Shown piece by piece: positions 11,316 through 63,963 of a DNA stretch of 64,000 bases. The DNA comes from Gimesia sp. (GTDB taxonomy: Bacteria > Planctomycetota > Planctomycetia > Planctomycetales > Planctomycetaceae). The position numbers and the translations under genes were made by a program. The notes beneath the pieces are model-generated. The model did no database searches. It saw only the letters and a program-made list of their open reading frames with translations, and was not told where the DNA came from. The first letter of the stretch is position 1; each line of letters opens with the position of its first letter. Where the stretch lies: positions 34,394 to 98,393 of the forward strand of contig PAJV01000062.1 in the NCBI GenBank assembly GCA_002706765.1, written 5' to 3'.

Positions 11316-11320
11316 ACTTT

Positions 11321-11376
11321 AGACTGTGTCCCGTTTTACTCCAGCGTCTCCAGAGCCATTTGAGCCCGTATTTAGT
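11321..11376 (-). repeat. Dispersed 90-bp repeat, copy E (3' half only)
   Basis: The reverse complement contains CAAATGGCTCTGGAGACGCT, then GGAGTAAAACGGGACACAGT. This matches the 3' half of the copies at 28312, 47971, 56911 and 63665. The 5' half is absent. It abuts the start codon of the membrane-protein gene (ATG at 11315), so it forms that gene's leader. Confidence 0.65.
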
Positions 11377-11870
11377 CCGACTCACCCCTCTCGGACCAGA
11401 CATACCAGTTGAGTCATCGATCGAGAAATCGCACCGAGATTTCAGAATCTGCCATCTCGTGTGTCACACATCTTAAGCGTGAATTATTAAGAATCTGTGT
11501 GCAAATGAAGAATTTGAATGGAGCGCAGGGACTGACGAGTGAAATCGTCCTGTGACGGCCTGATTCGAACGGAATGTTTCCTGATTTATTTTTCGCGAAG
11601 CGCAATTTCAGGACGAAATATCCTGTCAAAATCAGTTTCTTTACTCAGTAATTGAGTAGAAGGAGTGGACAGGGAGATTCTTCCAGATGTCGCGCAGCAG
11701 GGAATTTCTGGCCGATCAGAGATACTGAAATACGACTGCCGACGCCAGAGATTACCAAACTTGTGGAGTGTCATTTTTAAATTTTGGGTTGATAGAAATC
11801 ACGAGAGTGCGACAGCGGAGCACGTCAACAACATCCACAACCCTCAATTTCCAGCTTGACAAAGCACTCG
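11377..11870. other. Intergenic, nothing recognised
   Basis: About 490 bp between the half-repeat and the end of the LamG/glycosidase-like gene. Short open frames on both strands (for example 11414-11629 minus and 11665-11859 plus) have no ribosome site or family resemblance. I see no terminator, RNA or regulatory motif I can defend. Confidence 0.5.
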
Positions 11871-28163: not shown

Positions 28164-28732
28164 TCTCTGCTCAATCAACCAACTTTCTGAACTTTATCAA
28201 TTCTCGAAGTGATAGAAATCTTCTCCCGGGAATCAGCACGATATCGGTTCCCTGATGCGAACCTGCTTTTGTTTTCATAATCTATTTAAGTAATGAAAAC
28301 AGAAATCTGGATCGCGTCACATTTAACCATAGCGTCTCTCAATCTATTATTCTCGGTCCAAATGGCCATGGAGACGCTACAGTAAAACTGGGTAGAGTCT
28401 GGCGATGGCGATCTACTTAATCACTACCTTGAGACAGCTCGCATCCTGATTTCAGCCCTTTCCAGCAAAGAATCTCTCTTGAGAGCCTGGAACTGGTTTC
28501 CCAACTGTAATGTTTTTCAATTGATTATTAGATACTCTTGTCAGACTTAGTGAATATTTTTATTTCATTCGAGTACGAGGTTGAGTAAATTGATTTTAGA
28601 CGGTTCTCTAATTTAGAAACATAAAATGACCCGTAACTAGTTATGAAGGTCTATAAGCCACCAGACAAGATCCATAAGTCCACTAAACAACTGACAAGCA
28701 ACCACTCAGAAGCCTCCCTGAGGAAGTGATTT
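28164..28732. other. Intergenic region carrying dispersed repeat copy A
   Basis: About 570 bp between the MarR and ECF sigma genes. It contains the 90-bp repeat at 28312-28402. The rest is AT-rich, especially 28520-28640. It presumably holds the promoter of the sigma-kinase operon, but I cannot fix one. No open frame has a ribosome site other than the sigma gene itself. Confidence 0.5.
28312..28402 (+). repeat. Dispersed 90-bp repeat, copy A
   Basis: Reads CGTCACATTTAACCATAGCG, then TCTCTCAATCT, GGTCCAAATGGCCATGGAGA and CGCTACAGTAAAACTGGG. Within it AGCGTCTC and GAGACGCT are exact inverse complements about 32 bp apart, so the element can fold into a hairpin. It is nearly the same as copy B at 63665-63756. 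Confidence 0.85.
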
Positions 28733-44877: not shown

Positions 44878-44951
44878 CGGGACGTAGCGCAGCCTGGTAG
44901 CGCGCTACACTGGGGGTGTAGAGGTCGCAGGTTCAAATCCTGTCGTCCCGA
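44878..44951 (+). tRNA. tRNA-Pro (anticodon GGG)
   Basis: A 74-nt cloverleaf. The acceptor stem is CGGGACG paired with CGTCCCG, discriminator A. The D-arm GCGCAGCCTGGTAGCGC is present. Anticodon stem CTACA/TGTAG encloses loop CTGGGGG, giving anticodon GGG (proline). The T-arm contains GGTTCAAATCC. CCA is not encoded (CTC follows), so it must be added by the nucleotidyltransferase. Confidence 0.97.
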
Positions 44952-47524: not shown

Positions 47525-49313
<1,789 letters not shown>

Positions 49314-53617: not shown

Positions 53618-56600
53618 ATGAAATTTCCCCATTTCTTTATTGATCGTCCCATTTTTGCATCCGTGCTCTCGATGGTGGTGCTACTGGTGGGAAGCCTGGC
53701 TTACTTCCTGCTGCCTGTCGCCCAGTATCCGGAAGTCGCTCTCCCCACCGTCGTCGTTCGCGCCAGTTATCCGGGAGCCACACCTGATACGATTTCGAAA
53801 ACCGTCGCCACTCCCCTGGAGCAGGAAATCAACGGCGTTGACAACATGGTTTACATGGAATCCCAGGCAACAACTGACGGTTCCATGACCTTGACGGTCT
53901 CTTTCGCCTTGGGGACCGACGTTGATCAGGCCCAGGTACTGGTACAAAACCGGGTCGCCATTGCAGAGCCGACACTTCCTGCTGAAGTGCGGCAGATTGG
54001 CGTCACTACCCGAAAAAGTTCTCCTGACCTGATGATGGTGATTCACCTGTATTCTCCCGACGATTCCCGGGATCAACTCTATATCAGCAATTATGCCTAC
54101 CTGCAGATTCGCGATGTACTGTCACGCCTGGATGGCGTAGGAGACATTCAGGTTTTTGGGGGAACCCAGTACAGCATGCGGGTCTGGCTGGATGTAGAAC
54201 GTCTGGCAGCACTCGATCTGACTCCCGGTGATGCCGTCCAGGCGATGCGACAGCAGAACATTCAGGTTGCCGCCGGTGTCATAGGACAGCAGCCGCTGCC
54301 AGATACGAAAGAAGCATTTCAGGTCAATGTAAACACACTCGGCCGATTGCAGACTGCAGAAGAATTTGGGGAGATCATCCTCAAATCGGGAGAAGAAGGG
54401 CGCCTTGTCCGTCTCAATGATGTTGCGCGAATTGAACTGGGCGCGACCGACTATTCCGTGCGCAGCTATCTGGGCGACAAAAACGCAGTTGCCCTCGCCA
54501 TGTTCCAGCGTCCCGGTTCCAATGCCGTAGCGTCGGCGGAACGTATCATCAGCAAAGTCGAAGAACTTTCCCAACAGTTCCCCCCCGGGCTGAAACACGA
54601 AGTCATTTACAACCCGACCGCCTTTGTCGAAGAATCGATCGATGAAGTTTTCTCCACGCTCTGGCAGGCAGGTCTGCTTGTGACACTCACCGTATTTGTC
54701 TTTCTGCAAAACTGGCGTTCGACCATAGTGCCGACCATCGCGATCCCGATTTCACTGGTCGGTACTTTTGCCGTCATGTATGCCATTGGCTTCAGCTTGA
54801 ATAACCTGTCACTGTTCGGCCTGGTGCTCGCCATCGGTATCGTGGTGGACGATGCCATTGTAGTGGTAGAAAATGTCGAACGACTGATCGCAACCGGTCT
54901 TTCGCCTCGAGATGCGACTCGCAAAGCCATGGACGAAGTCGGTTCAGCCTTGATCGCGACCACGCTGGTTTTGATCGCGGTCTTCGTACCAACCGCTTTC
55001 ATCGCCGGAATCAGTGGCCAGTTTTACCGACAGTTCGCTATTACCATTGCCGTCTCGACTGCAATTTCGACTTTTGTCTCGTTGACACTTACACCTGCAA
55101 TGTGTGCCCTGCTGCTGCGTCCTCCGAAAGCAGCGAGTGAGAAAGCGACTTCTGCCAGCCGCTTCCGCTTCATTCGAGGACTGGTCTACCTGCGCGAACT
55201 CCCCTTTCGCCTGTTTAACAAAGTATTTGATTTTACCAGCGAACTTTATGCGGGCATTGTTTCGCGTGTATTGCGAATGAGTTTCCTGATGCTGATCGTG
55301 TACGTCGGGCTGCTCGGTTTGACCTGGTTCGGCTTCACTAAAGTTCCCTCCGGTTTTATTCCTGCTCAAGACCAGGGATATCTGATTATCGCGATCCAAC
55401 TGCCACCTGGAGCGAGTCTGAATCGAACTGATGAGGTTACGCGACAGATTACCGATATGGCACTGGATGTTCCCGGAGTCTCTAATGCGGTGTCGTTTGT
55501 CGGGTTCTCAGGAGCAACTCGTGCCAACAGCTCCAACTCAGCGGCTATTTTCCCTGTGCTCGAAGACGCCCGGCTCCGTGCGACAAAAGGGCAGTCAGTC
55601 AATGCGGTCCTGGCAGAGCTGCGGAAACGGGTCAGTGTGATTGAAGATGCCAACGTATTCGTCATCCCCCCGCCTCCCGTGCGCGGGATTGGTACCGGGG
55701 GCGGATTCAAAATGCAGATCCAGGATAAGTCCGGCGCCGGCATGATTGCCCTGCAGGATGCCACCAATGCCGTCATCAATCAGGCCAGGCAGGAACCGGG
55801 ACTGGTGCAGGTTTTTACGAACTATACTATCGGAACTCCCCAGTATTTTGCCGACATCGATCGCACCAAAGTCCGAATGCTTGATGTCCCTATCGGCAAC
55901 GTCTTTGATGCATTGCAGATTTACCTTGGCTCTTCCTATGTGAATGACTTCAACTTCCTGGGACGTACTTATCGAGTCACGGCACAGGCAGATTATCGCT
56001 ATCGTGATGAACGCGAAGACATCGCCCGGCTCCGCACCCGCAGCAGTACCGGGGCGATCGTTCCGCTCGGGTCGATGGTCACTCTTCGTGAAACGACTGC
56101 GCCGGACCGGATTGTCCGCTACAACCTGTATCCGTCGGCTGACATCAATGGAGATACCCAGGCCGGCTTCAGTTCCGGCCAGTCGATTGCCACCATGGAA
56201 CGTGTTGCCAGGGAAACACTGCCACCAGGCTTTGGCTTCGAATGGACGGATATCGCTTACCAGCAGAAAGCGGCGGGAAATACGATTATTTATATCTTCC
56301 CATTATGTGTGCTGTTTGTATTCCTGGCCCTGTCTGCACAGTACGAAAGCTGGATTCTGCCGCTCGCGGTCATCCTGATCGTGCCCCTGTGCCTGTTGTG
56401 TGCCGTCTTTGGAATCTGGCTGCGAGAGATGGACAATAACATTCTGGTGCAGATCGGCTTTATCGTGCTGATCGGACTTGCCTGTAAGAACGCCATTCTG
56501 ATCGTCGAATTCGCCAAGGCGGAAGAAGACACGGGCAAGAGTCCGTTCCAGGCAGCCGTCGATGCCTGCCGCCTGCGATTGAGGCCGATTCTGATGACCG

Positions 56601-56842
56601 CCTTTTCCTTTATCCTGGGGGTGATTCCACTTGTGATCGCCACGGGAGCCGGTTCTGAAATGCGACAGGCATTAGGAACGGCAGTCTTCAGCGGGATGCT
56701 GGGAGTGACTCTGTTTGGACTCTTTCTGACCCCCGTGTTTTATGTCGTGCTGCGAAAAATGGTCGCATCTCGGAAACAAGACTCACCGGAAAATGAGGAA
56801 CTCAATACTGCTCCTCAGCCAATGCTCGAAAACCAGACATAA
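53618..56842 (+). CDS. RND multidrug efflux transporter (HAE1/AcrB type)
   Basis: 1074 residues of standard RND length. Two halves with 12 membrane segments: the first is IDRPIFASVLSMVVLLVGSL. Family signatures are ATPLEQEINGVDNMVYMESQ, LVQNRVAIAEPTLPAEV, and the TM4 proton-relay aspartates in GIVVDDAIVVVENVERL. A Lys in the TM10 region, LIGLACKNAILIVEFA, completes the relay. Hydrophobic drug export driven by protons is expected. It starts three bases after the adaptor stop, with GGGGGG as ribosome site, and ends at a strong terminator. Confidence 0.94.
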   Translation: MKFPHFFIDRPIFASVLSMVVLLVGSLAYFLLPVAQYPEVALPTVVVRASYPGATPDTISKTVATPLEQEINGVDNMVYMESQATTDGSMTLTVSFALGTDVDQAQVLVQNRVAIAEPTLPAEVRQIGVTTRKSSPDLMMVIHLYSPDDSRDQLYISNYAYLQIRDVLSRLDGVGDIQVFGGTQYSMRVWLDVERLAALDLTPGDAVQAMRQQNIQVAAGVIGQQPLPDTKEAFQVNVNTLGRLQTAEEFGEIILKSGEEGRLVRLNDVARIELGATDYSVRSYLGDKNAVALAMFQRPGSNAVASAERIISKVEELSQQFPPGLKHEVIYNPTAFVEESIDEVFSTLWQAGLLVTLTVFVFLQNWRSTIVPTIAIPISLVGTFAVMYAIGFSLNNLSLFGLVLAIGIVVDDAIVVVENVERLIATGLSPRDATRKAMDEVGSALIATTLVLIAVFVPTAFIAGISGQFYRQFAITIAVSTAISTFVSLTLTPAMCALLLRPPKAASEKATSASRFRFIRGLVYLRELPFRLFNKVFDFTSELYAGIVSRVLRMSFLMLIVYVGLLGLTWFGFTKVPSGFIPAQDQGYLIIAIQLPPGASLNRTDEVTRQITDMALDVPGVSNAVSFVGFSGATRANSSNSAAIFPVLEDARLRATKGQSVNAVLAELRKRVSVIEDANVFVIPPPPVRGIGTGGGFKMQIQDKSGAGMIALQDATNAVINQARQEPGLVQVFTNYTIGTPQYFADIDRTKVRMLDVPIGNVFDALQIYLGSSYVNDFNFLGRTYRVTAQADYRYRDEREDIARLRTRSSTGAIVPLGSMVTLRETTAPDRIVRYNLYPSADINGDTQAGFSSGQSIATMERVARETLPPGFGFEWTDIAYQQKAAGNTIIYIFPLCVLFVFLALSAQYESWILPLAVILIVPLCLLCAVFGIWLREMDNNILVQIGFIVLIGLACKNAILIVEFAKAEEDTGKSPFQAAVDACRLRLRPILMTAFSFILGVIPLVIATGAGSEMRQALGTAVFSGMLGVTLFGLFLTPVFYVVLRKMVASRKQDSPENEELNTAPQPMLENQT

Positions 56843-56886: not shown

Positions 56887-56910
56887 CGTATATCGACAGC
56901 AGTAATTAAC

Positions 56911-57001
56911 CAGAGTGTGTCCAGTTTGACTGTAGCCTCTCCAAGGCCGTTTGCACCAGGCATAATAGCAGGAGAGACGCTATGGCTGAATGTGATGCGA
57001 T
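56911..57001 (-). repeat. Dispersed 90-bp repeat, copy C
   Basis: The reverse complement reads ATCGCATCACATTCAGCCAT, then AGCGTCTCTCCTGC, GCAAACGGCCTTGGAGAGGC and TACAGTCAAACTGGACACAC. The inner stem AGCGTCTC / GAGAGGCT has one mismatch. Its 5' edge touches the stop codon of the OsmC gene (57002-57004). Confidence 0.8.
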
Positions 57002-57430
57002 TTAGACTACAGTCACATCCAGAGTAATGTCGGCATTAAACAGTTTCGAAACGGGACAGCCGGCTTTCGCCATCCCCGCCAGTTCTTCGACTTTGGCAGC
57101 ATCAGCACCGGGAACGCTGGCCTTCAAAGTCAGGTGAACCGATTTAATCGCAAAACCGCCTTCGACCTGATTTAAAGAGACCTCAGCAGTCGTTTCCAGC
57201 TTATCAGCTGTAAGACCGGCGTCTCCGAGAATCTTCGAAAGTGCCATTGAGAAACAACCCGCATGGGCGGCTCCCAGAAGTTCTTCAGGGTTCGTTCCCT
57301 GCTCACCTTCAAAGCGGCTGGAGAAACCATAGGGTAGACTGGATAAGGCACCACTCTCAGTAGATACAGTCCCTTTTCCATCTTTAAGTCCACCCTGCCA
57401 GACTGCAGATCCCGTTCTTTTAATCGTCAT
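57002..57430 (-). CDS. OsmC/Ohr-family peroxidase
   Basis: 142 residues, full length. The two redox cysteines are C59 in AAHAGCFSM and C125 in AKAGCPVSK. The LSSLPYGFSSRFEG segment with its Arg is typical of the OsmC branch, which reduces organic hydroperoxides in the cytoplasm. AAGGAA precedes the ATG. The stop codon is directly followed by repeat copy C, so a hairpin could form at its mRNA 3' end. Confidence 0.92.
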   Translation of the reverse strand: MTIKRTGSAVWQGGLKDGKGTVSTESGALSSLPYGFSSRFEGEQGTNPEELLGAAHAGCFSMALSKILGDAGLTADKLETTAEVSLNQVEGGFAIKSVHLTLKASVPGADAAKVEELAGMAKAGCPVSKLFNADITLDVTVV

Positions 57431-63614: not shown

Positions 63615-63963
63615 GATTTCACTCCACTGATACTCTGAAAATGGGTAAACCGTATTTGCTTCCAGAGCGCATCACATTTAACCATAGCGTCGCTCAATCT
63701 GAGATACTCGGACCAAATGGCCTTGGAAACGCTACAGTAAAACTGGACACAGTCTGCTGGAAATCAAATACCCTTGATTACCATCTAGTCGAACGTGCCC
63801 CTGCGAAATCGACAACCTGACTGAAATATTTTTTATTTTGGAGAAAAGGAAGTTCTATCAGCACATTCTATACACATAAAACAAGTAATAGCAGCCGGTT
63901 GTGCGATAGCCCAAGACTGGCGGACTCCTGAAGAATACTTCAGAATCTTCTTAGGAGGAATTT
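63615..63963. other. Intergenic region between divergent genes with repeat copy B
   Basis: About 350 bp holding repeat copy B and the leader of the gene at 63964. A short hairpin, CTGAAG-AATA-CTTCAG, lies near 63927-63942, before AGGAGG at 63953-63958. Confidence 0.5.
63665..63756 (+). repeat. Dispersed 90-bp repeat, copy B
   Basis: Reads GAGCGCATCACATTTAACCA, then TAGCGTCGCTCAATCT, GGACCAAATGGCCTTGGAAA and CGCTACAGTAAAACTGGACA. It is the closest relative of copy A; the inner stem is reduced to AGCGT/ACGCT. Confidence 0.85.

Follow-up and report, generated by a model that had tools for sequence, protein, structure and literature searches.

A 90-bp inverted-repeat element of Gimesia, frequent at gene 3′ ends, is very probably a MITE of the IS630 type

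The window analysed here, that is, the whole 64,000-nt stretch of contig PAJV01000062.1 of Gimesia sp. (contig C62 of genome G000), carries five copies of a palindromic repeat at the positions and in the orientations reported by a first-pass annotation of the same DNA, four of them whole and one a fragment (Table 1; strands follow the orientation of that annotation). The words listed there as common to the five copies recur in them with some substitutions. Searching the window for ACAGTAAAACTGG with up to two mismatches gave nine matches against 1.13 expected, four of the nine at the copies, and CGTNNCATNNAACCATAGCGTCTC with up to three mismatches gave three matches against 0.00 expected; chance is excluded as the source of the five copies. 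The fragment at 11.3 kb extends over approximately 11320-11366 by the profile and over 11319-11390 by the covariance model. The flanking dinucleotide of the copy at 28 kb is TG on both sides, reflecting either matching decay or a TG target. The statement that all copies are intergenic was nearly right, the exception being the copy at 56.9 kb, from which the adjoining gene takes the final base of its stop codon. The OsmC domain encoded by this gene is complete (profile positions 3-99 of 100), and therefore the gene has probably not been cut short by the element. In an Rfam scan of the window, the tRNA alone reached the gathering score, and the element matched no Rfam family.

Table 1 Copies of the element and associated features in the window, and copies elsewhere that share a boundary.
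Feature	Position	Strand	Extent with flanking dinucleotide and one base per side	Remarks
Partial copy	11319-11390	-		Conserved part about 11320-11366; one arm and centre kept, other arm lost
Whole copy	28310-28399	+	28307-28402	90 bp between flanking dinucleotides, TG on both sides
tRNA gene	44878-44951
Whole copy, diverged	47972-48061	-	47969-48064
Whole copy	56913-57002	-	56910-57005	Terminal base completes stop codon 57004-57002 of adjoining minus-strand gene
OsmC-like gene, 142 aa	57002-57430	-		Stop codon shared with the copy at 56.9 kb
Whole copy	63665-63754	+	63662-63757	Highest model score among the five copies of the window
Boundary-sharing copies, G000	C78:121441-121628
Boundary-sharing copies, G002				L338, L352, L427, L430, L441
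Boundary-sharing copies, G012				L355, L356

The element is 90 bp long between two TA dinucleotides and consists of imperfect terminal inverted repeats of approximately 28 bp separated by about 40 bp, with no gene. Alignment of 30 copies with their flanks gave the form YTA-GAGCGCATCACATTTAACCATAGCGTCTC ... GAGACGCTACAGTAAAACTGGACACAGTC-TAR, in which each end begins with GA, and the span of 96 bp (including the TA and one base per side) is nearly constant. Among the aligned copies outside the window, TA was present on both sides in 18 of 29 and on one side in nine of 29. A covariance model based on 33 copies, four of the window and 29 of other parts of the genome, was searched against the whole of G000, in which at least 150 copies were found, all 150 of the 150 scored candidates matching the model. 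By direct count, the first 600 kb of contig C76 contain 25 copies and the 98.4-kb contig C62 contains six, which corresponds to one copy per 20-odd thousand bases in the sampled part of G000. Extrapolated from these 31 copies in 698 kb, the family is estimated at about 350 copies in the 7.9-Mb genome, and the first-pass guess of hundreds of copies, made from the window, thus proved sound.

Target-site duplication, which the first-pass annotation had proposed to look for, was examined at two loci (L006 and L021) across 17 genomes of the genus, G000 included. At L021, the empty site of genome G009 is CCCT-TA-GAGC, against GCCT-TA-[element]-TA-GAGT in the window genome, so that the TA is duplicated; the element is likewise missing from G002, where one TA is present. 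At L006, the element is missing from G002, G009 and G011, in which the flanks are joined. All three read TG at the site, within TGAG, and the filled site implies TAAG, so that a TA target at L006 would fit only if one base differed before insertion. The protein encoded at 53618-56842 is very widespread (80 related loci); loci L257 to L261 were compared with the window and were left out of the empty-site comparison. By name, the closest relatives of one window protein belong to a Planctomycetaceae bacterium (95% identity) and to an uncultured Gimesia (91%), which makes Gimesia the probable genus.

The flanks of the copies define the target further. Of 85 copies in G002, 78 have TA on one side and 72 on the other; the position next outward from the TA is G in one flank of 83 of them and C or T in the opposite flank of 80. 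Among the 61 G000 copies scoring 60 bits or higher, these two preferences are seen in 49 and 56. Judged from these base counts, the target is an oriented YTAG in both genomes. IS630 itself prefers CTAG. By eye, the two sides differ the opposite way in G066, a genome of a second genus, with C on the first side in 19 of 20 copies and mostly A on the second. Copies with a common boundary were all head to tail and none inverted, with one junction in G000, six in stretches of G002 and two in G012 (Table 1); the G012 junctions and L338 had been selected for their tandem appearance. Such head-to-tail junctions are to be expected from an oriented YTAG target. Some of the boundary-sharing arrays look like tandem duplications, and others contain unlike copies.

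The element was present in all 17 genomes searched in the genus (G000 included), with at least 150 matches in three (G000, G002 and G009), 19 to 68 in ten and a single match in four. Among 120 genomes sampled from the family, seven, belonging to two of 58 genera, contain it. These per-genome counts derive from the candidates scored (150 per genome in the genus and 34 in the family sample) and may be low. In G066, which represents the second genus, a diverged version of equal length occurs in at least 30 copies, and the 20 copies fetched are much alike. This version keeps the arms, the 96-bp span and the central CCATTTGG; by eye, a TATAAT word of the element consensus, considered as a promoter, is absent from its consensus. 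Four of the 20 G066 copies (L165, L175, L178 and L180) have mutually similar flanks (84-90% across 157-194 bp, element included), which would fit insertion into another dispersed repeat or into paralogous genes. The single matches of G006 (L104) and G014 (L133) lie at one place (3 kb, 95% identical), so that one insertion is common to both. A plasmid collection gave no match to the element, and a 22-base word of the second arm had no exact match in viral contigs.

For copy and neighbourhood analysis, parts of G000, G002, G009 and G066 were read. Among 83 standard-length copies in G002, taken from 78 stretches that were mostly best-scoring places, 14 have a core identical to that of another copy and unlike flanks. 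In G000, copies are mostly diverged, and each of 81 copies differs from its nearest neighbour by two to 28 bases. These data indicate that some copies are recent in G002 and that most are older in G000.

A DDE_3 search of G000 gave five matches, and through these IS630-type pieces were found with an end similar to one arm of the element. In G005, L119 is an IS630-family element of 1021 bp between TAs, with a helix-turn-helix (HTH) frame of 111 aa and a DDE frame of 213 aa; the DDE frame scores 143 bits with the IS630 transposase model NF033545 (cut-off 100), and DDE_3 and helix-turn-helix domains were found in the frames of L119. One arm of the small element matches L119 at 25 of 27 bases at each of the two IS ends, and both ends of a whole, putative IS630 element in G008 (L111) match that arm at 24 of 27. 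The DNA pattern of the IS right end has matches in five of the 17 genus genomes. Among these matches is L357 in G002, which is a copy of the small element; over 27 bases, one of its arms does not differ from the IS right end found in G009, that of an IS630 derivative. Two related IS630 elements from alphaproteobacterial plasmids begin with TTAGAGCG at both ends. Other IS630 copies, L034 and L035 (contigs C21 and C27 of G000) and L247 (G005), have a recognisable left end, and the stretch fetched shows no similar right end; an opposite-strand frame of L035, overlapping the end of the DDE frame, looks by eye like another transposase. At about 1420-1936 of L108 (G009), a short derivative of IS630 type has both ends and the first frame and seems to lack the DDE part, and G009 gave no DDE_3 match. 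The DDE_3 genes L031 (G000) and L245 (G002) were rejected as partners, having no similar ends.

The second arm (GACTGTGTCCAGTTTTACTGTAGCG) shows 8-11 mismatches in 27 bases to seven IS ends, the best match being 19 of 27. Within three mismatches it was found at 42 places in seven genomes; all of the 30 fetched were copies of the element itself, and no full-length parent with a second-arm end was among them. Likewise, none of 33 single second-arm ends (up to six or seven mismatches, in the sampled 1.26 Mb of G000) was traced to a longer element. Many of these continue into the element interior and thus appear to be decayed copies, some may be chance matches, and one adjoins a whole copy. The three genomes richest in copies (G000, G002 and G009) yielded no intact partner, and G005 has a complete IS yet one copy of the small element. 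The search for a source element, also put forward in the first-pass annotation, gave an IS630-type relative whose ends match one arm and no parent with the second arm.

These observations bear on the possibility that the element is of the same kind and is moved by another transposase with ends like the unmatched arm, its IS630 likeness reflecting shared ancestry only. The unmatched arm is recognisable in two genera, and G002, a single-contig genome with near-identical copies, has two DDE_3 matches only, neither of them with matching ends, as this explanation would expect. It has to be set against the identity of the L357 arm to an IS630-type end and against the target, which is TA as in RUP/IS630-Spn1 as described in the consulted part of PMC2229807, and we regard it as unlikely. 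We consider it very probable that the element is a non-autonomous mini-transposon (MITE) of the IS630 type, the IS630 assignment being based on one arm together with the insertion target and the hybrid copy L357. The first-pass annotation had named a MITE, without a gene and dependent on an enzyme elsewhere, as one of its options, and this agrees with the hundreds of copies, the terminal inverted repeats, the TA duplication observed at one empty site, the near-identity of one arm to IS630 ends, the variable copy number and the near-identical copies in one congener. Mobilisation by an IS630 transposase is what we infer from these features: an IS630-family transposase, supplied in trans by an IS with similar ends, would bind the ends of the element and would cut and join at TA, and insertion would take place at TA, usually within YTAG, with duplication of the TA.

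The other option, a REP-like repeat, is not supported, the unit being a 90-bp element bounded by terminal inverted repeats with a TA duplication. A REP/REPIN-type palindrome would be moved by a RAYT (REP-associated tyrosine transposase), and REP/RAYT systems have a linked RAYT transposase gene. The high copy number, the palindromic form and the mostly intergenic position would suit such a system, the arms contain GTAG and CGTC by eye, and REPs are reported from Planctomycetes in the available part of PMC3733652. However, REPs are defined in the same source as palindromes of 20-40 bp with a GTAG or CGTC tag at one end, and the Gimesia unit, with its 90 bp, terminal repeats of about 28 bp and TA duplication, falls outside this definition. 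In addition, one arm matches IS630 ends that bear the same TAGCG. We regard a REP/RAYT origin as extremely improbable.

Among known MITEs, RUP is described in the consulted parts of PMC2229807 and PMC3049150 as a non-coding element of 107 bp with 108 copies, ends resembling those of IS630-Spn1 and TA at the target. The Gimesia element is alike in being short and non-coding, with a TA target and one arm that resembles IS630 ends. It differs in its unrelated host and in that one arm only matches the partner ends, the two being compared by description and not by alignment; in addition, crowding at 3′ ends and stop codons is quantified for the Gimesia element. The Correia/NEMIS element of Neisseria, as portrayed in portions of PMC2229807 and PMC10969869, is also a small MITE with TA termini and inverted repeats (24 bp), with more than 120 copies in one species. 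Correia elements lie predominantly upstream of genes and carry promoters and RNase III sites according to the same portions, whereas the Gimesia element is below expectation in divergent regions and shows no orientation bias. The family is apparently new as such and would be a MITE of the RUP/Correia kind; in the literature on planctomycete MITEs and Gimesia transposases, no title or abstract among the matches listed describes it.

The gene neighbourhood was analysed over 1.26 Mb of G000, comprising 600 kb of C76, all of C62 and further stretches chosen partly around known copies; a home-made hexamer caller rather than a standard program called 886 genes there (82% coding). Of 85 copies placed, 46 were between co-directional genes, 18 between convergent and 17 between divergent genes, two within genes and two at edges. 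The shares expected by intergenic length are approximately 58% co-directional, 11% convergent and 31% divergent; convergent regions are over-used and divergent ones under-used (chi-square 12.8, P = 0.0016). In 21 of the 85 copies, the stop codon of a gene is made up of the target TA and the first base of the element, 20 in one register and one a base off. Beyond these cases, no gene call that begins outside an element terminates within it. Two calls have their start within an element, and a single copy is contained in a call. Occupancy of target-like sites (CTAG, CTAA and TTAG; all copies counted, including those with flanks that are no longer YTAG) was 22% at stop codons, 15% up to 50 bp downstream, 9% at 51-150 bp, 5% beyond and 0.1% in coding sequence. 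Stop codons are occupied more often than other non-coding sites (P = 1e-5), and the difference from the first 50 bp downstream is not significant (P = 0.21). Cruder criteria place eight of the 20 G066 copies and 11 of the 85 G002 copies at stop codons, three and four of these cases, respectively, having long or coding-like frames in other registers.

Enrichment at gene 3′ ends is also what a structured RNA or regulatory repeat kept by the host (a terminator, an RNase site or a 3′-end stabiliser), with incidental spread, would show, and the first-pass annotation had allowed for a regulatory or RNA element. The two single strands of the consensus fold unequally (-36.0 versus -23.7 kcal/mol). By eye, the consensus arms differ at ten positions, six of them transitions that all give G-U on one strand; the unequal folding arises because these six pair as G-U on one strand and as A-C on the other. 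The recurrence of the CCATTTGG centre and the 96-bp span in the second genus also speaks for such a role. An RNA role of the well-folding strand would be expected to favour transitions that preserve pairing as G-U, but among the copies 86 transitions make G-U on this strand and 108 break pairs. In addition, copies between co-directional genes are oriented 23:23, none of the 22 strongest column associations falls on stem pairs, contrary to the stem covariation that the first-pass annotation had suggested looking for, and four congeners have a single match.

Folding of the individual copies gave a further comparison. A set of 81 copies, from which copies below 50 bits, of a length other than 96 or near stretch ends were excluded, folds better on both strands than uniformly mutated and column-shuffled controls, none of 120 controls reaching it; the mean values are -28.5 and -21.7 kcal/mol for the copies, -25.0 and -19.8 kcal/mol for one type of control and -26.3 and -20.6 kcal/mol for the other. 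This result favours a structured RNA. Because both strands behave alike, we attribute the better folding to constrained DNA ends, the score threshold and unequal copy ages rather than to an RNA role, an attribution that falls short of proof. Taken together, the orientation, covariation and substitution tests gave the RNA or regulatory possibility no clear support, the better folding than controls stands on its side, and we consider it very unlikely as the main explanation.

On the MITE reading, copies persist mainly at gene 3′ ends. Upon entry into a TAA or TAG stop codon, the TA and the G of the element would remake TAG in either orientation, and gene length would be kept. The stop-codon habit has a precedent in the pneumococcal BOX element, which, as reported in the part of PMC3049150 consulted, overlaps gene 3′ ends and encodes the stop codon in 36 of 58 overlapped CDSs; BOX differs in being modular and in its proposed partner, ISSpn2. 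Apart from BOX, nothing evidently on point was among the matches listed in the literature on stop-codon insertion. It may even be that the element is adapted to stop codons, its G-starting ends and YTAG preference leading it to gene 3′ ends with a hairpin in the mRNA tail, although we think this unlikely. Active preference for stop codons and selection are not separated by the occupancy data (P = 0.21, as above).

With this element, the planctomycetes gain a large MITE family present throughout one genus, for which a candidate partner transposase and empty sites are available. With congeners carrying from one to more than 150 copies, bursts of a MITE and its survival at gene ends become testable within one genus. 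The high occupancy of stop codons, found also in a second genus, offers a simple reason why so many insertions are tolerated. Moreover, it is a warning for annotation, as gene ends and 3′ UTRs in these genomes are often transposon sequence.
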